In this document: positions 34,861 to 46,440 of the stretch, one piece after another
Numbering within the stretch: the stretch's first letter is position 1
How the letters are laid out: each line of letters starts with the position of its first letter
NCBI GenBank assembly: GCA_002748665.1
Contig: PDTB01000018.1
Span: 1 to 64,000, forward strand
From: Dethiosulfovibrio peptidovorans
Lineage (GTDB): Bacteria > Synergistota > Synergistia > Synergistales > Dethiosulfovibrionaceae
Length of the DNA stretch: 64,000 bases
Direction of reading: 5' to 3'
The notes under the pieces: model-generated
Databases searched by the model: none
What the model was told of the DNA's origin: nothing
Seen by the model: the letters and a program-made list of their open reading frames with translations, nothing else
Made by a program: the position numbers and the translations under genes

Positions 34861-35565
34861 GTGTACGGTACAGCTTGGGAAGCCGACCTCTCTCTGTTCC
34901 AGAATCGTCTTGGGTATACGTTTCACCGTGTTGAGCTGCTTTGGGAAGCCCTGACTCATTCGTCGTATGCGCATGAGTCAGGGCTCCCTTTTTGGAACGA
35001 ACGGCTGGAATTTCTCGGCGACGCTGTACTGGAGCTCGTGAGCAGCGTCTGGTTGTACGACCATAACCCCAACCAGGACGAGGGGGGGCTTACGTCCCTC
35101 CGATCCGGTGCAGTTTGTGGCGATGCTCTCTATAGGTGGGCCGTGCACTTGAAACTCTCAGACTTGATACGGGTTAATCGAGGTCTTCAAAGAGAACAGC
35201 ATTGCCTCTCCCCGTCCATCCAGGCCGATGCTGTTGAAGCTCTGCTTGGAGCCGTTTTCTTGGATGGAGGCTATGAGTCGGCGTGTGAGGTCGTTGAGGC
35301 CTACCTGAACTTTTACAACAGGGAAGGAGCCCGCTTTCCTCAGGATCCCAAATCAAGGCTTCAACGGTATCAACAGAAAATCGGCGGGGCCTTGCCCGTC
35401 TATGAAGTAGTTACCCGTAAAGGACCGTCCCATCGTCTCCGATTTGTCGTGACCGTTCGAATCGACGACGTAGAACTTGCACGAGGGGAGGGAACCTCCA
35501 TCAAGGATGCCGAGATGGAGGCAGCAGCTCAGGCACTGTCGAAGGTACAACCGGTTGCACCGTAG
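34861..35565 (+). CDS. rnc: Ribonuclease III
   Basis: This double-strand-specific endoribonuclease processes rRNA precursors. It has 234 residues. The catalytic signature NERLEFLGDAVLELV and the second acidic cluster (QADAVEALLGAVFLDGG) are present, followed by a C-terminal dsRNA-binding domain (DPKSRLQRYQQKIG to EAAAQALSKV). The start is GTG 34861, 6 bases after fabF. The promoter and operator of the next operon lie inside its 3' end. Confidence 0.94.
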   Translation: MYGTAWEADLSLFQNRLGYTFHRVELLWEALTHSSYAHESGLPFWNERLEFLGDAVLELVSSVWLYDHNPNQDEGGLTSLRSGAVCGDALYRWAVHLKLSDLIRVNRGLQREQHCLSPSIQADAVEALLGAVFLDGGYESACEVVEAYLNFYNREGARFPQDPKSRLQRYQQKIGGALPVYEVVTRKGPSHRLRFVVTVRIDDVELARGEGTSIKDAEMEAAAQALSKVQPVAP

Positions 35566-35583
35566 AGTCGTCCCTGATATACT
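35545..35583 (+). promoter_or_regulatory. dctP operon promoter with palindromic operator
   Basis: TTGCAC (35555-35560) and TATACT (35578-35583) are exactly 17 bases apart. The -35 forms the right half of GTACAACCGGTTGCAC (35545-35560), a palindrome with a perfect CAACCGGTTG core. The same promoter boxes and 13 of the 16 operator bases recur upstream of pyrR. The central CG palindrome is of a kind often bound by LacI-family repressors (inference). Confidence 0.7.
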
Positions 35584-35591
35584 TCTCATCA

Positions 35592-35614
35592 AGCCCTAAA
35601 ATACGAGGGTTTTT
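35592..35614 (+). terminator. Weak terminator after rnc, in the dctP leader
   Basis: AGCCCT (35592-35597) pairs with AGGGTT (35606-35611) with one G-U pair, followed by T's to 35614. It lies downstream of the dctP start point, so it would act as a weak attenuator for that transcript as well as closing the rnc unit. Confidence 0.4.
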
Positions 35615-35639
35615 CCGAATATCTGTGGAGGTGTTCCAA

Positions 35640-36638
35640 TTGAAGCGTAGTGTTTTGATAGCGATGTTCTGTCTGCTGTGTCTGTGCGTCTCTTCGGCTT
35701 GGGCAGGGGAGTATCCTGAGATGACCATTCGGTTAAGCCATAACCAGCCGGTGGGAAGTCCAGAGGACGTGGGGGCCGAGCGTTTCCGTGCCGTCGTGGA
35801 GGAGCGTTCCGGCGGCAGGATAAAAGTCCAGATTTTCCCCGCGATGCAGATGGGATCCATGAGGGAACAGGCTGAGGCCGTTCAGATGGGGACCATTGAT
35901 ATGACCGTTCAGCCCATCTCGGTTCTTACCCCCTTTGTTGAAGAACTCCAGATCGTCGATTTCCCCTTCCTTTGGCCCTCGGCCGATGAGCTCTACAGGG
36001 TGATGGACGGCCCGACTGGTGAAAAATTTTACGGCTATGCCGAGGAGAAGGGCTTTCAGGTCCTGGGGCTCTGGGCTTCGGGCTTCAAACAGTTCACGAC
36101 CAAGGGGCACGACATCCGGCGTCCTGAGGACTTCGATGGGCTCAAGATACGGGTCATGCCCTCGCCTCTTCTGATCGCTCAGTATAAAGCTTGGGGAGGT
36201 AACCCCATTCCAGTCGAATACGCTGAGCTCTATAACGCTCTTCAGCAGGGAGTCGTGGATGGGCAGGAAAACCCCATCCAGACCATCGCCATGAACAAAC
36301 TTTATGAGGTTCAGGACCATCTTGTCATCAGTAATCACGGCTTCCTCGCCTACTTGTTCGTGGTGAACAAACGATGGTTCGATGCCCTTCCTGAGAACGC
36401 TAGGGCACTCATCCTTGACGGCGAGCGTGAGGCCCGCATTGAAGAACGACGTGTTCAGTCCAGGAGAGAGGCCGAATACCTGGATGAGATTCGTTCGTCG
36501 GGAATAACCATCTCCGAGTTGCCCGAGGAGGGCTACCGTGCTTTTAAGGACGTCAGTCGTGGAGTCCACGAGCAATTCGCCTCTACCGAGAAAATGAAAG
36601 AACTCCTGCAGAGCTGCTATCAAGATCTGGGGCAGTAG
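35640..36638 (+). CDS. dctP: TRAP transporter solute-binding protein (DctP family)
   Basis: This is the periplasmic receptor of a tripartite sodium-driven carboxylate transporter, 332 residues. The signal peptide MKRSVLIAMFCLLCLCVSSAWAG ends near residue 23 (shown in two parts: a basic start and a hydrophobic core). RVMPSPLLIAQYKAWGGNPIP holds the arginine that binds the substrate carboxylate in this family, followed by ALQQGVVDGQENP. TTG 35640 is 9 bases after GGAGG. GTG 35625 overlaps that site. It heads the unit with an M20 hydrolase and pyrC, so a ureido acid or orotate-like ligand is plausible. Confidence 0.88.
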   Translation: MKRSVLIAMFCLLCLCVSSAWAGEYPEMTIRLSHNQPVGSPEDVGAERFRAVVEERSGGRIKVQIFPAMQMGSMREQAEAVQMGTIDMTVQPISVLTPFVEELQIVDFPFLWPSADELYRVMDGPTGEKFYGYAEEKGFQVLGLWASGFKQFTTKGHDIRRPEDFDGLKIRVMPSPLLIAQYKAWGGNPIPVEYAELYNALQQGVVDGQENPIQTIAMNKLYEVQDHLVISNHGFLAYLFVVNKRWFDALPENARALILDGEREARIEERRVQSRREAEYLDEIRSSGITISELPEEGYRAFKDVSRGVHEQFASTEKMKELLQSCYQDLGQ

Positions 36639-36660
36639 GGCAGAGCATAGGTTTGACACA

Positions 36661-36687
36661 AGGCGAGAGCTCTCTCTCGCCTTTTTT
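36661..36687 (+). terminator. Terminator between dctP and dctQ
   Basis: AGGCGAGAG (36661-36669), loop CTCT, and CTCTCGCCT (36674-36682) are followed by TTTTTT. It is a full rho-independent terminator inside the TRAP operon. Partial read-through would give more binding protein than membrane subunits. Confidence 0.85.
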
Positions 36688-36704
36688 GCTATGGGGGGTG
36701 GATC

Positions 36705-37169
36705 ATGTCACGTTTATTGGGTCGACTTGAGGAGGGATTTTGCGCCGCCGCTCTCTTGGCTACGGCGTTGATTTTGTTCGTCAATGTGACGCTTCGTCAC
36801 GTTTTCAACGCCAGTACCAGTTGGGCTGAGGAACTTATCAAATACCTCATGATCTGGATCACGTGTATCGGGGGGAGCATCTGCGTCAGACGGGGAGCCC
36901 ATATCAGGATGGACTTTCTGGTGGGATTGTTCTCCCCCCGTGGGAAGCGTGCACTTGATGTGGCCGTTTATGTTGCTTCGGCTCTTTTTTGTGGGGCCTT
37001 AACGGTCTACGGTTTTCGTATGGTTCTGTTCACCTTGCGGACCGGCCAGGTTTCTCCGGCTCTGAAGCTCCCCATGTGGGGTGTCTATTCAGCCATTCCC
37101 CTTGGGGGAGGGCTCATGGCCTTTCGCTTTTTTCAGAAAGCCTGTTCCTCCGAGGAGGACGAACGATGA
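36705..37169 (+). CDS. dctQ: TRAP transporter small permease (DctQ family)
   Basis: This four-helix small membrane subunit has 154 residues. NVTLRHVFNASTSWAEELIKYLMIW and RRGAHIRMDFLV are typical of DctQ (shown in parts). It follows the dctP terminator, and its end overlaps dctM by 4 bases. Confidence 0.85.
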   Translation: MSRLLGRLEEGFCAAALLATALILFVNVTLRHVFNASTSWAEELIKYLMIWITCIGGSICVRRGAHIRMDFLVGLFSPRGKRALDVAVYVASALFCGALTVYGFRMVLFTLRTGQVSPALKLPMWGVYSAIPLGGGLMAFRFFQKACSSEEDER

Positions 37170-38443
37170 CGCTCCTTTTGGCGACGGTCCTTCTTTTGGC
37201 CCTTTTCCTGAGCGTTCCCATCTTTATCGCTCTCAACGTTTCAGTGCTCCTGTGTATCCTGATCTTTACCCACATGCCGCCCATGATCCTGGTTCAGAAG
37301 ATTTTTGGCGGGATCGACAAATTTGCCCTCATGTCCATGCCCTTCTTCATCTTCGCCGCAAATGTCATGGATGCTGGCGGTCTCTCCCGTCGGATTCTGG
37401 ACTGGACCCGGAGTCTTGTGGGCAGCAAAAAAGGCGGTCTGGCCTACACTACCCAGGTTACCTGCATGGTCTTTGGCGCTCTATGCGGATCGAGCCCGGC
37501 CACGGTCGTTGCCATGGGGAAACTTCTCTATCCTGAGCTGGTCCGGGAGGGATATCCTCGGGGATTTTCCGTTGGCCTGATTACCTCCGCCGGCTCCGTT
37601 GCTCTGATCATCCCCCCGAGCATCACTCTCATCATTTATGCGGCCGCCACCGGAACGTCGGTGGGCGCCCTTTTCATGGCCGGGATCAGTGCGGGGATCG
37701 TCTACGGCCTGGCTGGCGTTGTTTATATCTGGTTCTTTTCAAAGAACCACGATCTGGCCGTTTCCAGTCCCTCTACGTGGCAGGAGATCGGTGGCAGGAC
37801 AAGAGAAGCTCTGTGGTCCCTCATGGTCCCCGTCATTATATTGGGCGGTATCTATCTCGGTATCTTTACCCCAACGGAGGCTGCGGGGATATCGGTTGTC
37901 TACGCCCTGTTCGTCGGGATCGTCATCTACCGAGAGATCACCTTGAAGGATCTCTACCACGTCTGTCTTAGATCGGCGATCACCTGCGCTCAGGTCCTCA
38001 TCTTGGTGGCTGCTGCTCAGACCTTCGGTTGGTTTCTCACGGTCGCTCGTATCCCCCAGGCTGTCACATCGTCGGTCATCGCTCACGTCTCGTCCCCCTG
38101 GGTCTTTCTGGCTGTGGTGAACATCGTCCTCCTTCTGGTCGGCATGTTCATGGAGGGGATCGCTGCCATTATCATCCTCGCCCCTCTCTTTTACCCTATC
38201 GCCTCGAAGATGGGCATCGACCCCCTTCATCTGGGGATCGTAATGGTCGCGAACCTCTCCATCGGAAACTTCACGCCCCCCTTTGGTCTGAACCTCTTCG
38301 TGGCCAGCGGTGTGACGGGGCTCCCCATGTCGGAGATCATACCTGCTGTGGCCCGGTTCATCCTGGTCAGCATCGTGGCGGTTCTGGTCATCACCTATGT
38401 TCCAGCTATATCCACCACCTTGCCCAATCTGGTCTACCCCTGA
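37166..38443 (+). CDS. dctM: TRAP transporter large permease (DctM family)
   Basis: This is the ion-coupled permease, 425 residues with about twelve hydrophobic segments. FALMSMPFFIFAANVMDAGG, CGSSPATVVAMGKLLYPEL, IIPPSITLIIYA and NFTPPFGLNLFVASG are DctM hallmarks. ATG 37166 follows CGAGGAGG and overlaps the dctQ stop. The same frame is open upstream inside dctQ, but that part is not coding. The M20 hydrolase starts 17 bases downstream. Confidence 0.92.
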   Translation: MTLLLATVLLLALFLSVPIFIALNVSVLLCILIFTHMPPMILVQKIFGGIDKFALMSMPFFIFAANVMDAGGLSRRILDWTRSLVGSKKGGLAYTTQVTCMVFGALCGSSPATVVAMGKLLYPELVREGYPRGFSVGLITSAGSVALIIPPSITLIIYAAATGTSVGALFMAGISAGIVYGLAGVVYIWFFSKNHDLAVSSPSTWQEIGGRTREALWSLMVPVIILGGIYLGIFTPTEAAGISVVYALFVGIVIYREITLKDLYHVCLRSAITCAQVLILVAAAQTFGWFLTVARIPQAVTSSVIAHVSSPWVFLAVVNIVLLLVGMFMEGIAAIIILAPLFYPIASKMGIDPLHLGIVMVANLSIGNFTPPFGLNLFVASGVTGLPMSEIIPAVARFILVSIVAVLVITYVPAISTTLPNLVYP

Positions 38444-38460
38444 AGGGCGGTTACGTAAAG

Positions 38461-39729
38461 ATGTCCTCGGGATTCTCCCTCTGTCTTGATGTCCTTGAGC
38501 GGATTAACCGATGGGGTCGGGCCCCAGGAGGCGGCTACTCCCGTTTGGCCTACACTGACGATGATTGCCGGGGTCGGGAGGCCGCTATAACCTTAATGGA
38601 GGAGCACGGCATGGCCGTGGAGACCGACGAGCTTGGGAACATTCGGGCCACCAGGTGGGGCTCTCATCCTCATCGCCCTCCCGTGGTGATCGGTTCCCAT
38701 CTCGATACGGTTCCCTCCGGTGGCGGCTACGACGGCACCCTTGGGGTTGCCGCCGGCGTCGGCGCTGTCGTGGACGTGGCGTCCCGATGCTCCGATCATA
38801 CCCATCCTCTTCAGGTCATGGTTTTCTCGGGAGAAGAGTCCAGCCGTTTCGGGGTTTCAAACATAGGAAGTAAGATGGCCACCGGATTTATGAAATTGGG
38901 GGATCTTTTCCGGTACAGGGACGAGGCGGGGATCTCCCTCTTTCGGGCGATGAGGGACTTCGGCCTGAGTCCCGAATGGCATAGTAGAGTCCGCATTCTG
39001 CCCACGGAGATGAAAGCTTTTTTCGAACTTCACATCGAACAGGGACCGGTGCTGGATCGGTCTGAAATCGATGTGGGAGTGGTGGAGGCCATAGCTGCCC
39101 CAACGCGCCTTCTTCTGGATGTTCAGGGTGAGGCGGGACACTCAGGTGCCTGTCCCATGGAGGATCGACGGGACGCTCTGAGTGCCTCGGCGGAACTTGT
39201 CCTGGAGGTCGAGCGTCTGGGGCTGGAGGAAGCAACTCATCGAACTGTGGCTACAGTGGGCGATTGCGAGGTCACTCCCGGTGTCATGAACGTCATACCG
39301 GGACGCTGCGGCCTCAAGGTCGATATCCGGGGGATTGACCGTCAAAGTATCGATAGGGTTCGTGATGGTCTTTTGGACTATATCCAATCCCTCGAAAAAC
39401 GTCGAGCCGTTCGGATATACGTGGAGGAACTCTCCCGGGGAGTTCCCGTCATCCTGGACGGAGGGCTGAGGTCCCTTCTGGGGCGGGTCTGCGACGACTT
39501 GAGGATTCCGTGGAAATCGATGCCCAGCGGTGCCGGTCACGACGCTATGTACGTGGCCTCGGTCATTCCTACTGCGATGATATTCGTTCCCTGTGTCGGA
39601 GGTGTGAGTCACAGCTCGTTGGAACGGATCGATGTGGGAAGAATTCGCTCGGGATACATGGCTTTGGTGGAGGCTGTCTATAGGTTGGTTTCCCGGGAAC
39701 GATACCTCGATAAGGAGGAAAAATCATGA
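38461..39729 (+). CDS. M20 family N-carbamoyl-amino acid hydrolase (allantoate amidohydrolase / carbamoylase type)
   Basis: It belongs to the family of zinc amidohydrolases that remove the carbamoyl group from N-carbamoyl amino acids, ureidopropionate or allantoate. It has 422 residues. Metal-site motifs are visible: GSHLDTVPSGGGYDGTLGV, FSGEESSRFGVSNIGSK, FELHIEQGPVLDRS and the late SGAGHDAMYVA, with GVSHSSLE near the end. The dimerisation domain lies at about residues 210-325. ATG 38461 comes 17 bases after dctM and its stop overlaps the pyrC ATG by 4 bases. The context suggests N-carbamoyl-aspartate (ureidosuccinate) or a related ureido acid (inference). Hydantoin-pathway use is the main alternative. 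Confidence 0.85.
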   Translation: MSSGFSLCLDVLERINRWGRAPGGGYSRLAYTDDDCRGREAAITLMEEHGMAVETDELGNIRATRWGSHPHRPPVVIGSHLDTVPSGGGYDGTLGVAAGVGAVVDVASRCSDHTHPLQVMVFSGEESSRFGVSNIGSKMATGFMKLGDLFRYRDEAGISLFRAMRDFGLSPEWHSRVRILPTEMKAFFELHIEQGPVLDRSEIDVGVVEAIAAPTRLLLDVQGEAGHSGACPMEDRRDALSASAELVLEVERLGLEEATHRTVATVGDCEVTPGVMNVIPGRCGLKVDIRGIDRQSIDRVRDGLLDYIQSLEKRRAVRIYVEELSRGVPVILDGGLRSLLGRVCDDLRIPWKSMPSGAGHDAMYVASVIPTAMIFVPCVGGVSHSSLERIDVGRIRSGYMALVEAVYRLVSRERYLDKEEKS

Positions 39730-41009
39730 AATGCCTGTTTTACGGAGGACGGGTGGTGGATCCCTCCCAGGACCTGAACGAACCTGTGGACATTCTGACG
39801 GACTCGGGTGTCGTGGCCTGGATTGGCAGGGGAGATCCCTGTTCCATGGACGGTGTCCGATCTGTGAACTTGACGGGAAAAATCGTCATGCCCGGTCTCA
39901 TCGACCCTCACGTCCATTTCAGAGAGCCTGGTCAGGAACACAAAGAGACCATTGAGACCGGTTGTCATGCCGCAGCTGCGGGAGGCTTCACGTCCGTTGT
40001 GGCCATGGCCAACACCTCTCCGACGGTCGAATCGGTGGAGACTCTGCGATTGGTCCTTTTTAAGGGGAGAAAGACACCCATCCGTTTCCGCTCTGTGGCG
40101 TCCGTTACCAAGGGGCTTCAGGGACTGGAACTGACCCCCATGGAGGAGCTCGCCCAGGCTGGTGCCGCAGGCTTCTCCGACGACGGTCTCTCAGTGGTCA
40201 ATCCTGCTCTTATGCTCGAAGCTCTGGAGAGAGCGGCTAGTCTGGGGCTTCCTGTCTCGGTTCACTGTGAGGATCCCTCCCTGTGGGGTGATCGATCGGT
40301 GAATCGGGGTGATGTCTCCCGATCCTTGGGGCTCCGGGGAGTTCCTGCCGTGGCTGAGGAGCTCATGATTCAAAGGGATATCTGCCTGGCCGAGACGGCC
40401 GGCGTGCCTGTCCACATCCAGCACGTGAGCAGCGCCCGTGGTGTGGGCCTTATCGCCCAAGCCAAGGAGCGAGGAGTTCTTGTGAGCGCCGAGGCCACGC
40501 CTCACCACCTGACCCTCACCGACGAGTCGGTGCTATCCTTTGGTACCCAGGCTAAAATGAGCCCTCCTCTTCGAACCTCGGAAGATGTGGAGTGTCTTCG
40601 GAAGGCCCTTCGAGACGGGGTGATCGATGTCGTCGCTACGGATCATGCGCCCCACAGCGCCGACGAGAAGGCCCAAGGTCTTGGAGATGCTCCTAACGGT
40701 GTCGTTGGCTTGGAGACGGCTGTCCCCGTGATCCTGACCGACCTCGTTCACTCCGGAGTTCTTTCCCTCTCCGACATGGTCAGAGCGATGTCCTGTGCCC
40801 CTGCCCGCATTTTTGGAATAGAGGGTGGTACCCTTCGACCGGGTTCTCCTGCCGATCTGACCGTGATCGACCTCGATCGACGATGGACTCTGGACGCTGG
40901 ACTTTTTAAATCGAAGGGACGGAATACCCCCTTTCATGGCAAACCAGTTCAGGGAGCTGTCGCTATGACCGTTGTCGGTGGACATGTGGTTTATCGGTCG
41001 GATAGATAA
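39726..41009 (+). CDS. pyrC: Dihydroorotase (type I), catalytically complete
   Basis: It interconverts N-carbamoyl-aspartate and dihydroorotate. It has 427 residues. All metal and catalytic signatures are there: LIDPHVHFREPGQEHKE, GGFTSVVAMANT, the aspartate in GFSDDGLSV, VHCED, HIQHVSSARG, SAEATPHHLTLTD and VVATDHAPHSADEK. It overlaps the M20 gene by 4 bases, so the two are cotranslated. It is the only intact dihydroorotase in the window, since the pyrC-like gene in the next unit lacks metal ligands. Allantoinase or hydantoinase activity is a less likely alternative. Confidence 0.9.
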   Translation: MKCLFYGGRVVDPSQDLNEPVDILTDSGVVAWIGRGDPCSMDGVRSVNLTGKIVMPGLIDPHVHFREPGQEHKETIETGCHAAAAGGFTSVVAMANTSPTVESVETLRLVLFKGRKTPIRFRSVASVTKGLQGLELTPMEELAQAGAAGFSDDGLSVVNPALMLEALERAASLGLPVSVHCEDPSLWGDRSVNRGDVSRSLGLRGVPAVAEELMIQRDICLAETAGVPVHIQHVSSARGVGLIAQAKERGVLVSAEATPHHLTLTDESVLSFGTQAKMSPPLRTSEDVECLRKALRDGVIDVVATDHAPHSADEKAQGLGDAPNGVVGLETAVPVILTDLVHSGVLSLSDMVRAMSCAPARIFGIEGGTLRPGSPADLTVIDLDRRWTLDAGLFKSKGRNTPFHGKPVQGAVAMTVVGGHVVYRSDR

Positions 41010-41048
41010 ATGCAACCGATTGCACTTCATCTAGTTTCCTGTTATACT
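41010..41048 (+). promoter_or_regulatory. pyrR operon promoter with palindromic operator
   Basis: TTGCAC (41020-41025) and TATACT (41043-41048) are 17 bases apart, the same boxes and spacing as at dctP. ATGCAACCGATTGCAC (41010-41025) overlaps the -35 and holds the palindrome TGCAACCGATTGCA with one central mismatch. It matches the dctP operator at 13 of 16 positions. Confidence 0.72.
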
Positions 41049-41051
41049 CTC

Positions 41052-41077
41052 CCCAGCTGACCTATAAGGAGACTGGG
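41052..41077 (+). promoter_or_regulatory. Small hairpin around the pyrR ribosome binding site
   Basis: CCCAG (41052-41056) can pair with CTGGG (41073-41077), leaving AAGGAGA in the loop or its flank. The stem is only 5 bp. The whole leader is about 25 bases, too short for the usual PyrR transcription attenuator, so translational control is the most that could be encoded here. Confidence 0.25.
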
Positions 41078-41079
41078 AC

Positions 41080-41631
41080 ATGGGACTTAGGGAAAAAACG
41101 GAGGTCATGACCGGGAAGGAGATGAACAGGGTGCTTCATCGAATCGCCCGGGAGCTTGTAGATCGGAATCGAGGGCTCCGAGATCCGGTGGTCCTGGGGA
41201 TTCAAAGGCGAGGAGTCTACCTTGCGGCTCGGCTTCGGAAGATCCTTCAGGGGAAGGAGGGCACAGAGATCCTTGGAGGCGAGCTGGATATCACTCTTTA
41301 TCGGGATGACCTTGCTGTCCTTTCCGATGAGCCGGTGCTCCACAGTACCATGGTCCCTACGGATATATCGGGAAAGACGGTGATCCTGGTGGACGATGTC
41401 ATCTTCACGGGAAGGACGGTCCGGGCGGCTCTGGAAGCTCTAATGGATCTGGGGCGGCCTTCGTCCATCCAACTGGTGGTTCTGGTGGATCGGGGGCATC
41501 GGGAACTGCCTGTCCAGCCCGATTACCTGGGTGCGACGGTGACCACGTCTAAGAACGAGGTGGTGGAGGTCCACGTCCGGGAGCTGGACGGCGAGGATCG
41601 GGTGTGTATCTGTGAAAAGGAGGCTCTCTGA
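41080..41631 (+). CDS. pyrR: Bifunctional pyr operon regulator / uracil phosphoribosyltransferase PyrR
   Basis: This phosphoribosyltransferase-fold protein binds pyr mRNA when UMP is high and has weak UPRTase activity. It has 183 residues. The PRPP loop is VILVDDVIFTGRTVRAALEAL, with the N-terminal RIARELVDRN and GIQRRGVYLAARL typical of PyrR. ATG 41080 follows AAGGAG. No canonical PyrR attenuator is seen ahead of it. It overlaps pyrB by 1 base. Confidence 0.92.
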   Translation: MGLREKTEVMTGKEMNRVLHRIARELVDRNRGLRDPVVLGIQRRGVYLAARLRKILQGKEGTEILGGELDITLYRDDLAVLSDEPVLHSTMVPTDISGKTVILVDDVIFTGRTVRAALEALMDLGRPSSIQLVVLVDRGHRELPVQPDYLGATVTTSKNEVVEVHVRELDGEDRVCICEKEAL

Positions 41632-42548
41632 TGCCTTGGGAACGAACGAGTTTGACCGATCTGAACGACTGGACGAAAGAGGATTTTCGGTGTTTTCTGT
41701 CTCTGGGCTTGGCTCATAAGGCATCGTTGTCCCATCGTGCCCGTAAGCAGGAAATTCTCCGGGGACGTACAGTGGTTAACCTCTTTTTCGAGCCGTCCAC
41801 CCGAACCAGGATATCCTTCGAGATTGCCGAGCAATTTCTGGGCGCTGATGTGGTGAACTGGTCATCCTCGGGCTCCAGTCTCTCCAAAGGAGAGACCCTT
41901 CGGGATACGGTCTGGACCCTGAAGGCTATGGGGGTCGATGCTCTGGTGGTTCGCCACAGCATGGCCGGTTTCCCCCTTTTTCTCCAGAAGCTTCTTCCCG
42001 GGGTGGCGGTGATCAACGGTGGCGACGGGGCGAGAAGTCATCCCACTCAAGCTCTTCTGGACCTCCTATCGGCGTACGAGGCCCTGGGAGACCTGGAAGG
42101 TGTCCCCATGGTGATTGTCGGAGACGTTCGGCACAGTCGGGTTGCCCGGTGTGTGGCCAAAGCTTTTACCTCCATGGGAGCCTCGGTGTTCTTCGCTGGC
42201 CCTCGATCTCTGATGCCGGCTAACGTGGAGGCTTTGGGTGGAACCTATGTCGAGGACTCACGCCAGGCGCTTCGGATCTCTAAAATTGTCTACCTTCTGC
42301 GGATCCAGAGAGAGCGCCAGGATCAGGGGCTCTTTCCCTCCTTTCGGGAATACCATCGCTTCTTCGGTGCCGATCCTGACGAGCTTCGGGACGATGCCTT
42401 GGTGATGCATCCCGGCCCTATCAACAGGGGAGTCGAGATCTCGTCTTCGGTAGCCGACGGCCCCCAAAGCCTGATTCTGGATCAGGTCCGAAGCGGTGTG
42501 GCGGCCCGAATGGCCGTTCTGGAGCTGTGTCTTGGAGGTGAGCGCTGA
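41631..42548 (+). CDS. pyrB: Aspartate carbamoyltransferase catalytic subunit
   Basis: It forms N-carbamoyl-aspartate from aspartate and carbamoyl phosphate. It has 305 residues. The carbamoyl-phosphate motif FFEPSTRTRISFEIA and the later NGGDGARSHPTQALLDL are canonical, with HPGPINRGVEI near the C-terminus. No pyrI is present. The degenerate dihydroorotase follows with a 1-base overlap, as in organisms where ATCase is complexed with an inactive dihydroorotase. Confidence 0.95.
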   Translation: MPWERTSLTDLNDWTKEDFRCFLSLGLAHKASLSHRARKQEILRGRTVVNLFFEPSTRTRISFEIAEQFLGADVVNWSSSGSSLSKGETLRDTVWTLKAMGVDALVVRHSMAGFPLFLQKLLPGVAVINGGDGARSHPTQALLDLLSAYEALGDLEGVPMVIVGDVRHSRVARCVAKAFTSMGASVFFAGPRSLMPANVEALGGTYVEDSRQALRISKIVYLLRIQRERQDQGLFPSFREYHRFFGADPDELRDDALVMHPGPINRGVEISSSVADGPQSLILDQVRSGVAARMAVLELCLGGER

Positions 42549-43483
42549 TGTCCCATATCGGTTTTGTCGATCTCTTTGTTCCCTTGGGACATCCTCAAAA
42601 ACTTGTGGCGATGGCTCGAGAGGGCGGCTATACTGTGATAGGGGCTCTCTCCTCTGAGGTATGGACCGATGGAGACCTGACAACTCTTTCTCTTCCAGAG
42701 GTCTTGAACGACGATGGATCTATGAGGGAGATCCGAAGTGAGGTGGAGGCCACAGGTGCATCCATGATCTACGGTGGCCGTTCTCTGGGGGGAAACAGCC
42801 TTGTCCTTCGGAACGTCATGGCCTATTGCTCCGGGATCGGGGTCCGACTGGCCCTGATTCCCGACGAGGAGCCTCTCTCCAGAAACGCCCAGGTTGCCGA
42901 GGGACGAGCCTCGTCTCTCTCAGGTATGACCGGATTTCCGAGGATTGCTGAGGTAATAGGTGTATTTCGGGCAGCGCTTCTGGCCCGGGAATATGGCGTG
43001 CCCCTTCATCTACATGGGATCTCCACCAGGGAGGGACTCGACCAGGTCCGTCGCTGGAAGGCTGATGGATTGGATGTCACCTGTTCGGTGATCGCACTCA
43101 GTCTCTGTATGAACGAGGAGGACCTGATTCGATCCGAGTGGAATCCGGCACTCAAGGGGGAGATCCCCCTCCGGTCCGAGGATGATCGGTTGGCTCTCTG
43201 GGCAGGGGTGGCCGATGGCACGGTAGACGCCGTGACCAGTGGACATAGTGATGTCGATCCAGAAGATCGTGTTGTCCCTTTCCAGATGGCGCCTTTTGGG
43301 TATACAACCCTTCCGGGTGCAGCTCGGTCGGTGGTGGATGTCTGGCGTCGGGATGGCTACGGGGTGACTCCAGAGCGCTTGGCGTCCTGCCTTAGGAGCG
43401 GTCCCGCCCGACTTTTAGGGATGACCGATCTGGACGATGGACTATTGCTTCAGGATCTGATCAACCATGACCCTACCCGTTGA
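42548..43483 (+). CDS. Dihydroorotase-like protein PyrC', predicted inactive
   Basis: This 311-residue protein is related to dihydroorotase by its C-terminal pattern (GVPLHLHGISTREGLDQV, DAVTSGHSDVD, SGPARLLGM) but is shortened by more than 100 residues. The metal-binding sites are lost. There is no HxH pair at the N-terminus, HCED is replaced by IPDEE, the TPHH site by ALSL, and ATDHAPH by TSGHSDV. Noncatalytic PyrC' proteins are known to support ATCase assembly (for example in Pseudomonas), and the 1-base overlap with pyrB fits that role. The start is ATG 42548. It overlaps pyrK by 17 bases. Confidence 0.82.
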   Translation: MSHIGFVDLFVPLGHPQKLVAMAREGGYTVIGALSSEVWTDGDLTTLSLPEVLNDDGSMREIRSEVEATGASMIYGGRSLGGNSLVLRNVMAYCSGIGVRLALIPDEEPLSRNAQVAEGRASSLSGMTGFPRIAEVIGVFRAALLAREYGVPLHLHGISTREGLDQVRRWKADGLDVTCSVIALSLCMNEEDLIRSEWNPALKGEIPLRSEDDRLALWAGVADGTVDAVTSGHSDVDPEDRVVPFQMAPFGYTTLPGAARSVVDVWRRDGYGVTPERLASCLRSGPARLLGMTDLDDGLLLQDLINHDPTR

Positions 43484-44213
43484 CGACCGACTGGTCACGG
43501 TCATCAAACAAGAGAGGGCAGGGGAGGGAGTATATGCCCTGTCCCTTCACTGTCCTTCGGCCTCTGTCTCGGCCATCCCCGGTCAATTCGTCCTGATCAG
43601 AGACCCCTCGTGGGGGATGGACCCTCTCCTCATGCGCCCCTTCGCCGTTGCTGGAGTTTGGGAAGATCGCTTGGAGGTCGTCTATCGAACCGTTGGGCGA
43701 GGTACCGAGCGTCTTTCACGATGCCTCCCAGGGGACGAACTTCTCCTTCGGGGCCCTGTGGGCAGGGGCTTCCGTGCGCCTGCTTCACCTCCTATTTATG
43801 TCGCCGGTACCTTGGGTGTGGCGCCCTTGCTTTTTGCCCGTCAAATATTCGGTGGCGGACGTTTCATCCTTGGTGTTCCCGATGCCTCCTGGGCCCCGTT
43901 TGTCCGGTGGGTCCTTGAGCGGTGCCCCGAGGTAGAAGTTTTCTGCGATGACGGTACTATAGGCACCAAAGGGTCAGCTCTTCGGGGAATGAGCTCCGGC
44001 GAATCGTCGCCGATCCTGGCATGCGGCCCCATGGGCATGATGACCGCCATGAGCAGCATGGATCTGGTTGATGTCCAGGTTAGTCTTGAAAACCGTATGG
44101 CCTGCGGCATAGGCGCATGCTGTGGTTGCGTAACTGCCGCTGAGTATGGGCACCTTCGGGTGTGTGCCCAGGGACCGGTTTTCGACTTGAAGGAGTTGAG
44201 GCATCATGGCTGA
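43467..44213 (+). CDS. pyrK: Dihydroorotate dehydrogenase B, electron transfer subunit
   Basis: This FAD and [2Fe-2S] subunit passes electrons from PyrD to NAD+. It has 248 residues. The FAD domain has DPLLMRPFAVAGV and YRTVGRGTERLS, and the NAD-binding region IYVAGTLGVAPLLF. The cluster cysteines are seen in CGIGACCGCVTAA plus the later RVCAQGPVF. The presence of PyrK means the dehydrogenase is NAD-linked and therefore reversible in principle. Confidence 0.93.
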   Translation: MTLPVDDRLVTVIKQERAGEGVYALSLHCPSASVSAIPGQFVLIRDPSWGMDPLLMRPFAVAGVWEDRLEVVYRTVGRGTERLSRCLPGDELLLRGPVGRGFRAPASPPIYVAGTLGVAPLLFARQIFGGGRFILGVPDASWAPFVRWVLERCPEVEVFCDDGTIGTKGSALRGMSSGESSPILACGPMGMMTAMSSMDLVDVQVSLENRMACGIGACCGCVTAAEYGHLRVCAQGPVFDLKELRHHG

Positions 44214-45117
44214 TCTGTCTGTTGGGATCGGCGCTCTACGGCTCCGATCCCCCGTGGTCCTCGCGTCTGGGACCTGGGGATACGATGAGCCCCTTTGGCG
44301 AGAGGACCTCATGACCTCAGTGGGGGCCGTCTGCTCCAAGGCCATCACCGAACTCCCCCGGGATGGAAATCCCGGGACTCGGATTTGGGAAACTCCCTGC
44401 GGTCTTCTGAACAGTATCGGTCTTCAGAACACCGGTATAGACGATTTCGTGGATCGAGTGATCCCCCTGCTGAAAGATCGGGGAACACCGCTGGTGGCTA
44501 ACGTGTCCATGGAGGACGAGGCCGGATTAAATCGGATGGTAGAGCGGCTCCTCCCTTTGGCCTCCGATGTGTCCGCCATTGAGCTGAACGTCTCCTGCCC
44601 CAACGTGGACCACGGATGCATGTCCTGGGGTGTGAGTCCCGACCTGACGGCTCGGGCGACAGCCATGGTTCGGGAACTGTGGAGTGGTCCCCTGTGGGTG
44701 AAGATGACCCCCCAGGCCCCGAATCCTGGAGACGTGGCTCGATCCGCTCAGGACTCCGGAGCCGACGCCTTGGTGGTTGCAAACACCTGGCTCGGGATGG
44801 CCGTCGATGTTCAGAATCGTCGTCCTGTCTTTCAGCGGGCCGTTGCCGGGCTCTCCGGACCGGCGGTCTTTCCCCTGGCCCTTCGCCTTGTCTGGCAGGT
44901 AGCCGGTGCCGTCTCCATTCCGGTAATAGGCTGCGGCGGCGTCTCCTCCGGTGAGAATCTTCTGGCCATGGTTATGGTGGGAGCTACGGCCGTGGAAGTG
45001 GGAACCGGTCTCTTTGGAGATCTTCACCTTCCCGAGAGAATATTGGAGCAAGTGGCGTCCTACATGGACGAAGAGGGTGTGACCGATCTTGCCGACCTGA
45101 TCGGTATTGCCAGATGA
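44206..45117 (+). CDS. pyrD: Dihydroorotate dehydrogenase B, catalytic subunit
   Basis: This FMN enzyme (class 1B) oxidises dihydroorotate to orotate. It has 303 residues. The catalytic base is the cysteine in ELNVSCPNVDHGC, as in class 1 enzymes. GDVARSAQDSGADALVVANTW and VIGCGGVSSGENLLAMVMVGA bind FMN. It overlaps pyrK by 8 bases. Confidence 0.94.
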   Translation: MADLSVGIGALRLRSPVVLASGTWGYDEPLWREDLMTSVGAVCSKAITELPRDGNPGTRIWETPCGLLNSIGLQNTGIDDFVDRVIPLLKDRGTPLVANVSMEDEAGLNRMVERLLPLASDVSAIELNVSCPNVDHGCMSWGVSPDLTARATAMVRELWSGPLWVKMTPQAPNPGDVARSAQDSGADALVVANTWLGMAVDVQNRRPVFQRAVAGLSGPAVFPLALRLVWQVAGAVSIPVIGCGGVSSGENLLAMVMVGATAVEVGTGLFGDLHLPERILEQVASYMDEEGVTDLADLIGIAR

Positions 45118-45154
45118 GACAAACAGGATGAAAGACGTGGAAGGAGGAACCCCT

Positions 45155-45865
45155 GTGGATAGAGATAAAGACTTGCCGTTGATCCTCGCCCTGGACCTCG
45201 ACACTCTGGCCGGGGCCAGAGGCACGCTGGACATCGTTCGAGATCGAATCAGATACGTGAAGATAGGCCCCAGGCTTTTTGCTCTGGGAGGTGTTCCATT
45301 CGTGACCGAGATGGTGGACTACGGCTTTAAGGTCTTCCTGGATCTGAAGCTTCACGACATCCCCAACACAATTCGATTGGCTGTCCAGGCCTTCAGCGAC
45401 ATCGGGCTCTGGTCCTTGACCCTTCATGCTGCCGGAGGACGCCGGATGCTGGAGGAAGCCGTATCGGCTCGGGACCGCTCCCGGTCGTCCATGAAACTCT
45501 TTGGCATATCTGTCCTTACCAGCTTTGATGACCGCCTCTGGAACGAGGCTACTCCTGGTTGTCCCATGACTGATGCCCTGAGAAGCCGCTCCTGGCTCTG
45601 TGATGATGTTGGACTGGACGGGGTTGTCTGCTCCCCTCTTGATCTGCCTATCATCGGCGAAGGACGGGAGGGCTTCCTTAAGGTCGTCCCGGGAGTTCGT
45701 CTGGCCTCCTCGGAGGACGACCAGACCAGGGTTGCCACCCCCGCTCAGGCCTTTAAAAACGGTGCGGACTATGTGGTCATGGGGCGGCCAATCTACCGTG
45801 CCGACGATCTGGACCAGGCCATGGACCGGATCACCAGTTCCATAAAGGAGGGGCTACTGTCATGA
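45155..45865 (+). CDS. pyrF: Orotidine 5'-phosphate decarboxylase
   Basis: It gives UMP from OMP. It has 236 residues. The catalytic DLKLHDIPNTIR and the phosphate-binding VMGRPIYRADD are present, with ILALDLDTLAGA at the N-terminus. GTG 45155 is chosen because AAGGAGG lies 7 bases upstream. ATG 45128 is in frame but poorly placed. Its stop overlaps the pyrE start. Confidence 0.93.
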   Translation: MDRDKDLPLILALDLDTLAGARGTLDIVRDRIRYVKIGPRLFALGGVPFVTEMVDYGFKVFLDLKLHDIPNTIRLAVQAFSDIGLWSLTLHAAGGRRMLEEAVSARDRSRSSMKLFGISVLTSFDDRLWNEATPGCPMTDALRSRSWLCDDVGLDGVVCSPLDLPIIGEGREGFLKVVPGVRLASSEDDQTRVATPAQAFKNGADYVVMGRPIYRADDLDQAMDRITSSIKEGLLS

Positions 45866-46440
45866 CCGTTCAGAATACAATCGAGGAGATGATGATCCAG
45901 TCGGAAGCGTACCTCAAGGGACATTTTCTCCTCTCTTCGGGGAAACACAGCGGCCACTACATGCAGTGTGCCATGATGCTTCGCTGTCCTGATAAGGCAG
46001 CCTTTGCCGGTCAGGCCATCGCCCAGGCTCTGGAAGGGATTGCCGTGGATTTCGTTGTCTCGCCGGCCATCGGAGGGCTCATCATCGGTCATGAGGTCGC
46101 TCGAGGGCTGGGTGTGCCCTTTTTGTTCTGTGAGCGGGAGAACGGGGCCATGACCCTGCGCCGGTTCCCGGTAGAGCCCAACCAACGGTTTGTGGTGGTG
46201 GAGGATGTCATCACCACCGGCGGATCGGCTGCCGAGGTGGGGGAGCATCTCCGGGAACGTGGTTGCATCTGGGAGGCTACGGCCTGCATCGTCGATCGGA
46301 GCGGAGGAGCCCACCGGTTTGACAACGACCCCATCTCCCTGTGGGCGACCTCCTTCCCGGTCTACGCTCCGTCGAACTGTCCGCTGTGTGATCAGGGAAA
46401 ACCCCTGTGCAAACCCGGCAGCCGTCCGGGGGACCGATGA
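45862..46440 (+). CDS. pyrE: Orotate phosphoribosyltransferase
   Basis: It adds orotate to PRPP to form OMP, the entry point for any salvaged orotate. It has 192 residues. The PRPP loop is FVVVEDVITTGGSAAEVGEH, and GHFLLSSGKHSGHYMQCA is the OPRT N-terminal motif. A cysteine cluster ends the protein (NCPLCDQGKPLCKPGS). ATG 45862 overlaps the pyrF stop, and its own stop overlaps the next gene by 4 bases. Confidence 0.94.
   Translation: MTVQNTIEEMMIQSEAYLKGHFLLSSGKHSGHYMQCAMMLRCPDKAAFAGQAIAQALEGIAVDFVVSPAIGGLIIGHEVARGLGVPFLFCERENGAMTLRRFPVEPNQRFVVVEDVITTGGSAAEVGEHLRERGCIWEATACIVDRSGGAHRFDNDPISLWATSFPVYAPSNCPLCDQGKPLCKPGSRPGDR

Follow-up and report, generated by a model that had tools for sequence, protein, structure and literature searches.

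A palindrome conserved at pyrimidine and nucleobase promoters of Synergistota, the probable operator of a LacI-family repressor

The 64,000-nucleotide (nt) stretch of Dethiosulfovibrio peptidovorans DNA analyzed here (contig PDTB01000018.1, positions 1 to 64,000; the window) carries two consecutive gene sets on its forward strand, a TRAP-carbamoylase-pyrC unit beginning with dctP and a pyrimidine operon beginning with pyrR. Both are preceded by near copies of the palindrome TGCAACCGGTTGCA, which, judged from sequence comparison, very probably serves as operator for a LacI-family protein that represses pyrimidine genes in Synergistota. A preliminary description of this DNA had claimed identical promoter boxes (TTGCAC-N17-TATACT) for dctP and pyrR, and a scan of the window found this pattern without mismatch at both promoters and nowhere else (30 places at up to three mismatches, the two perfect ones included). 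It had also claimed two palindromes, identical at 13 of 16 bases, whose right half is the -35 box, and both were read directly in the sequence as GTACAACCGGTTGCAC (operator 1) and ATGCAACCGATTGCAC (operator 2). Their 14-base cores, TACAACCGGTTGCA at 35546-35559 and TGCAACCGATTGCA at 41011-41024, each lie one base from the palindrome. At up to one mismatch, the palindrome was found twice in the window, compared to 0.01 expected per 64 kb with uniform bases. A looser count at up to three mismatches gave three matches against 1.98 expected; this does not exceed chance, and the count was dropped as evidence.

In the whole source genome, three sites were found at up to one mismatch (0.33 expected with uniform bases). 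One lies before the dctP-to-pyrC unit, one before the pyrR operon and the third, on another contig, 61 bases upstream of a gene for an NCS2-family nucleobase permease. The preliminary description had suggested such a genome-wide scan and held that occurrence at many unrelated promoters would speak against a shared repressor; the scan returned these three places only, all before pyrimidine or nucleobase genes. As a reversed control pattern matched equally (also three matches per strand in one scan, two in another), the number of sites is not above chance and the evidence lies in their placement. The permease had not been part of the earlier description and adds a third target to the two in the window.

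The survey was extended to 61 genomes, comprising the source genome and 60 relatives, and at least one site at up to one mismatch was present in 45 of them. Sixty-seven of the 75 sites lay within 600 nt before named targets, namely pyrR or pyrB (42), the permease (19), dctP (3) and lacI (3). Where the region upstream of the pyr genes could be read (48 genomes), a site preceded pyrR/pyrB in 40; 13 of the 61 genomes had no readable pyr region, seven had no readable permease region, and one genome with a site before a distant pyrB-like gene (G007) is counted among the 75 sites and left out of the 48 regions. Comparison with relatives, also suggested earlier, agreed with this picture within the genus, as both promoter sites were kept in all five congeners read at both promoters, the pyr site at 14 of 14 bases and the dctP-side site at 12-13 of 14 (just 12 in G001, G002 and G006); the dctP side of a sixth congener (G003) was outside the comparison. 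Overall, the 14-base palindrome is common at promoters of pyrimidine-synthesis and nucleobase-uptake genes in many Synergistota.

Upstream regions were scored with a matrix from whose training set the tested family had been left out, and they split into scores of at least 9.7 or at most 4.5. Matrix positions 7-8 are CG at 0.98 each. For background, windows of 650 bases reached 9 bits in 26 of 1500 cases in non-Synergistota DNA and in 14 of 1219 cases in the flanks of Synergistota lacI genes, as did 13 of 1020 upstream regions after shuffling; 13.9 bits was reached by three and four windows of the first two sets, respectively. Because background reaches 9 bits, the weakest accepted permease sites (9.7-10 bits; G012, G013 and G029) could singly be chance.

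The position of the palindrome relative to the promoter differed between the two main target classes. At pyr promoters its right half forms the -35 box, and when the best -10 box was sought at 15-19 base pairs (bp) from it, the 40 promoters with a site gave a match of at least 5/6 in 33 cases, at 16-17 bp, and of 4/6 in the other seven, with a spacing of 15-17 bp. Shifted control places, pooled from pyr and permease regions, reached a score of at least 5 in 14 of 300 cases and of at least 4 in 79 of 300. At permease promoters it is the left half that forms the -35 box, with a 5/6 -10 box in 23 of 35 compared to 7 of 210 control places. The operator thus overlaps the -35 box in two registers, 10 bp apart, as would fit a repressor that blocks polymerase; repression rather than activation is the predicted mode of action.

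The source genome encodes one LacI-type helix-turn-helix protein, of 220 amino acids (aa; G000:C21:132977-133636, locus L005). Its gene lies directly after a uridine-kinase-like gene, which passed the Pfam PRK cut-off and scored below the NCBIfam uridine kinase cut-off (98 bits against 180), and before an Mrp-like open reading frame (ORF) named by look. The LacI helix-turn-helix model PF00356 was passed by this protein and by those of two other loci (L005, L111 and L142: 52, 53 and 61 bits against 27). A strong ortholog (E value 8.7e-22 or better) was present in 42 of the 61 genomes and tracked the sites: as scored with the matrix, the pyr upstream site occurred in 37 of 37 genomes with lacI and 3 of 11 without (Fisher p 4.4e-7), and the permease upstream site in 32 of 40 and 3 of 14, respectively (p 1.6e-4), where neither test takes relatedness into account. 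The 11 pyr regions include two with a distant pyrB (G016 and G033; E 1.2e-28 and 9.3e-31), without which the count is 3 of 9, and three genomes with weak LacI matches were scored as lacking lacI (G018, G032 and G035; E 1.9e-12, 9.1e-7 and 2.4e-11). Both lacI and the site were absent from genomes of families f2 and f6 in which pyrR and pyrB remain, and likewise from seven f3 genomes that still have the permease.

A contig search identified 38 Synergistota LacI loci (L111-L148) among the best 80 of at least 395 matches. This clade was bounded by organism and rank, its last member being L148 (E 3e-24) and the next match L149 from Streptomyces (9e-20), where general LacI proteins of other phyla begin among the matches listed. 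Some of these loci are on the same contigs as surveyed genomes (e.g., L111 and G003, L116 and G043, L118 and G048, L141 and G040), so that counts by locus and by genome share members. A site of at least 11/14 was found within 200 nt upstream of lacI in 13 of the 38 loci, compared to 0.7% expected for each under uniform bases and with the loci being related. All nine short LacI forms (L140-L148) have such a site before their own gene, as does G052, while the genome survey of lacI upstream sites left out G056, G059, G047, G025 and G012. These sites, which also go beyond the earlier description, occur in f7, Thermovirga-type and Synergistes-type genomes. The TVSR recognition helix is invariant in the aligned members, and hinge residues A53 and L56 do not vary in either of two alignments, of 20 and 26 sequences. 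Camas et al. 2010 (PMC2978694) link the TVSR helix and the hinge Ala and Leu to the outer half-site G and the central CG. Hinge Ala and Leu and a central-CG palindromic operator are thus found together, the combination looked for in a LacI-family system, and the LacI protein is the likely user of this operator.

Following this reasoning, a LacI dimer would bind across the -35 box at three targets, namely the pyrR operon, the NCS2 permease gene and the TRAP-carbamoylase-pyrC unit, and would exclude RNA polymerase when the cell is well supplied with pyrimidines. Binding of the repressor upstream of its own gene (autoregulation) is also predicted for several other lineages. The 220-aa LacI protein encoded beside the uridine-kinase-like gene would be the regulator acting in the source genome. 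Binding, repression and signal are all predictions here. The earlier proposal that one repressor controls both the TRAP-carbamoylase-pyrC unit and the pyrimidine operon thereby gains support from the conserved sites and the lone co-occurring LacI protein.

Several observations weigh against this assignment. Raw counts in the 61 genomes are weak (75 sites compared to 40 for the reversed control pattern), so the case for an operator rests on placement, and eight of the 75 sites lie elsewhere, three inside coding sequence (L040, L191 and L211) and five intergenic by eye (L195, L196, L222, L225 and L228). The permease site is absent in eight genomes with lacI (five f9, three f4). The permease target need not be a pyrimidine gene, as its best score was for xanthine permease (249 bits), followed by NCS2 (230 bits), both under cut-off, and uracil permease (144 bits). 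Further points would favor a real operator bound by another transcription factor, with LacI merely sharing its lineages. The regulator comparison covered the LacI family alone among transcription-factor families, lacI of the source genus has no upstream site of its own, and sites without a detected lacI occur before pyr genes in G019, G028 and G057 and before the permease in G013, G019 and G057. These four genomes are drafts (83-96% complete), and lacI may be missing from the assembly rather than from the genome. Set against this explanation are the sites upstream of lacI itself, the LacI-type central-CG palindrome with its matching helix and hinge, and the joint loss of lacI and site from genomes that keep the target genes, which together make another factor improbable.

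PyrR RNA attenuation (RF00515) controls pyr operons, and PyrR could likewise control this one, as in Bacillus, via attenuation or by binding the palindrome DNA. In favor of this, pyrR heads the operon, and eight RF00515 matches were found elsewhere in Synergistota, with 36.7-53.9 bits and thus all under the curated cut-off of 54. Three of these occurred in one set of nine loci, six of which were from genomes without lacI; all three (L274, L099 and L275) belong to lacI-lacking f6 genomes and are without the DNA site. The other five occurred in a set of ten loci (L109, L107, L101, L035 and L209), all with the DNA site. Synergistota thus include loci with the DNA site, with the RNA element or with the two together; in the source genome only the DNA site is seen. 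Here, only 32 nt separate the -10 box from the pyrR start, and no Rfam match, the PyrR attenuator included, was obtained in 35300-41400 at E values up to 1; likewise, 14 loci gave no Rfam match at the gathering threshold. As six f2 and f6 genomes have pyrR without the DNA site, and the site also precedes the permease and dctP, control by PyrR is very unlikely. The original suggestion of a LacI-family protein rather than RNA-binding PyrR is therefore favored by sequence evidence, given a lone LacI that tracks the sites and the lack of a PyrR-type RNA match in that interval.

A third explanation, that the protein is a CcpA-like carbon catabolite regulator and the pyrimidine genes part of a wider carbon response, draws on two matches: CcpA is the solved structure nearest in sequence (E 1.8e-39), and its NCBIfam model is the one that fits the source-genome and L111 proteins best. 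Yet the three LacI proteins scored only 96, 87 and 78 bits against the cut-off of 442 for the CcpA equivalog TIGR01481, and with 67 of 75 sites at nucleobase, dctP or lacI genes such a regulator is most improbable. That the sites are mere look-alikes, i.e., convergent strong promoters without a common regulator, is scarcely credible: half of the motif is a -35 box and the raw counts are as given above, but the palindrome is conserved over all 14 bases in different families, and at the permease its position relative to the promoter differs by 10 bp, its other half serving as the -35 box.

The genes behind the two promoters in the window are listed in Table 1. The dihydroorotase-like gene of the pyrR operon is short and scores below every dihydroorotase cut-off shown, and the unit is therefore probably in the regulon via pyrC. 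The short protein had no Pfam match, reached dihydroorotase models only below cut-off and, by eye, lacks the HxH motif that usually binds metal. It could serve PyrB as a partner without catalytic activity; non-catalytic dihydroorotases have a precedent in Pseudomonas.

Table 1. Operators, promoters and genes of the two gene sets in the window.
Feature	Position	Strand	Basis or remark
Operator 1	35545..35560	.	Overlaps -35 of dctP promoter and 3' end of rnc ORF (34861-35565)
Promoter TTGCAC-N17-TATACT, TRAP-carbamoylase-pyrC unit	35555..35583	+	Pattern scan
dctP, TRAP solute-binding protein	35640..36638	+	PF03480
dctQ-like TRAP small membrane subunit	36705..37169	+	ORF; named from position and look
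dctM-like TRAP large membrane subunit	37166..38443	+	ORF, start approximate; named from position and look
Hydantoinase/carbamoylase-family amidase	38449..39729	+	TIGR01879, 354 bits vs cut-off 204; start approximate
pyrC, dihydroorotase	39726..41009	+	TIGR00857, 412 bits vs cut-off 279
Operator 2	41010..41025	.	Overlaps -35 of pyrR promoter
Promoter TTGCAC-N17-TATACT, pyrR operon	41020..41048	+	Pattern scan
pyrR	41080..41631	+	NF003549, 231 bits vs cut-off 138
pyrB, aspartate carbamoyltransferase	41631..42548	+	Named by look and operon context; relatives found
Short dihydroorotase-like protein, 311 aa	42548..43483	+	Dihydroorotase scores all under cut-off
pyrK, pyrD, pyrF, pyrE ORFs	43467-44213, 44206-45117, 45107-45865, 45862-46440	+	Named by look and operon context

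Near the third site, a Sir2-like ORF runs antiparallel, and its longest reading covers the site. A Sir2-like gene transcribed away from the permease gene, the operator lying between the two or at the Sir2 start, was also seen in G017, G020, G022, G031, G038, G041, G045, G050, G054, G057 and G060 in addition to the source genome (L003), an arrangement that spans four families (f1, f5, f8 and f10). The intergenic copies away from named targets include two pairs. In two congeners (G002 and G006; L195/L196, position 2001), the copy TGCAACCGGTTGTA overlaps a -10-like TATAAT and is flanked, by eye, by a transporter cluster on one side and an unrelated gene on the other. In two Thermovirga-type genomes (G022 and G031; L222/L225, position 2001), a copy lies ~3.4 kb from lacI and, by eye, upstream of an oxidoreductase-like ORF.

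The candidate repressor is itself unusual in size, a feature absent from the earlier description. LacI is 266-304 aa long in 29 of the 38 clade loci, 192-195 aa in nine Synergistes-like loci and 220 aa in the source genome, where ~55 internal residues are missing relative to the 273-276-aa proteins of congeners, with both ends in frame (by eye). A structure model of one 195-aa form contained the DNA-binding domain and N-subdomain only, without a C-subdomain. The effector lobe of this clade is apparently shrunken, or in some species gone, and the usual small-molecule switch may therefore not apply. A signal could instead come from a ligand bound in a new way in the reduced core or from a partner protein, or there may be no signal. 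One tentative and rather doubtful scenario is that the repressor lost its effector lobe, probably twice independently, and now senses pyrimidines via a protein docked on the N-subdomain, similar to CcpA with HPr-Ser46-P. If a partner were involved, PyrR would be the first candidate; pyrR is present in 39 of the 42 genomes with lacI, though genomes without lacI likewise carry it together with the pyr operon.

A LacI repressor of nucleotide genes is of a known kind. According to PMC4052901, E. coli PurR, a LacI-family protein, controls purine and some pyrimidine synthesis, CcpA with HPr-Ser46-P shows that a LacI-family member can use a protein as corepressor, and the uridine-linked UriR of Corynebacteria exemplifies LacI-family control in pyrimidine nucleoside metabolism. 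Like PurR, the candidate described here would be a LacI-family repressor of nucleotide synthesis, and solved PurR structures match both LacI models. In contrast to PurR, the Synergistota regulon is small and centered on pyrimidine synthesis and nucleobase uptake, and the effector lobe is apparently shrunken or absent; the three LacI proteins scored 36, 33 and 48 bits against 501 for the PurR equivalog NF007979. CcpA is among the closest structures by fold as well as by sequence, but its targets differ and the modeled 195-aa form lacks a C-subdomain. UriR serves utilization, whereas the candidate would act on de novo synthesis, and scores for its equivalog NF051853 were 72, 60 and 55 bits against 550. 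Unlike PyrR attenuation, the proposed control would act on promoter DNA.

Judged from open-access literature only, the regulon appears to be new, as do its conservation across this phylum and the apparent loss of the effector lobe. The proposal offers a testable regulator of pyrimidine synthesis for a phylum in which the open-access literature searched describes none. It further points to an exchange of roles, within the phylum, between RNA attenuation and a DNA repressor acting on the pyr operon. Finally, the natural LacI proteins of 192-220 aa, whose C-subdomain is apparently missing for the most part or entirely, raise the question of how such a repressor could sense a signal.

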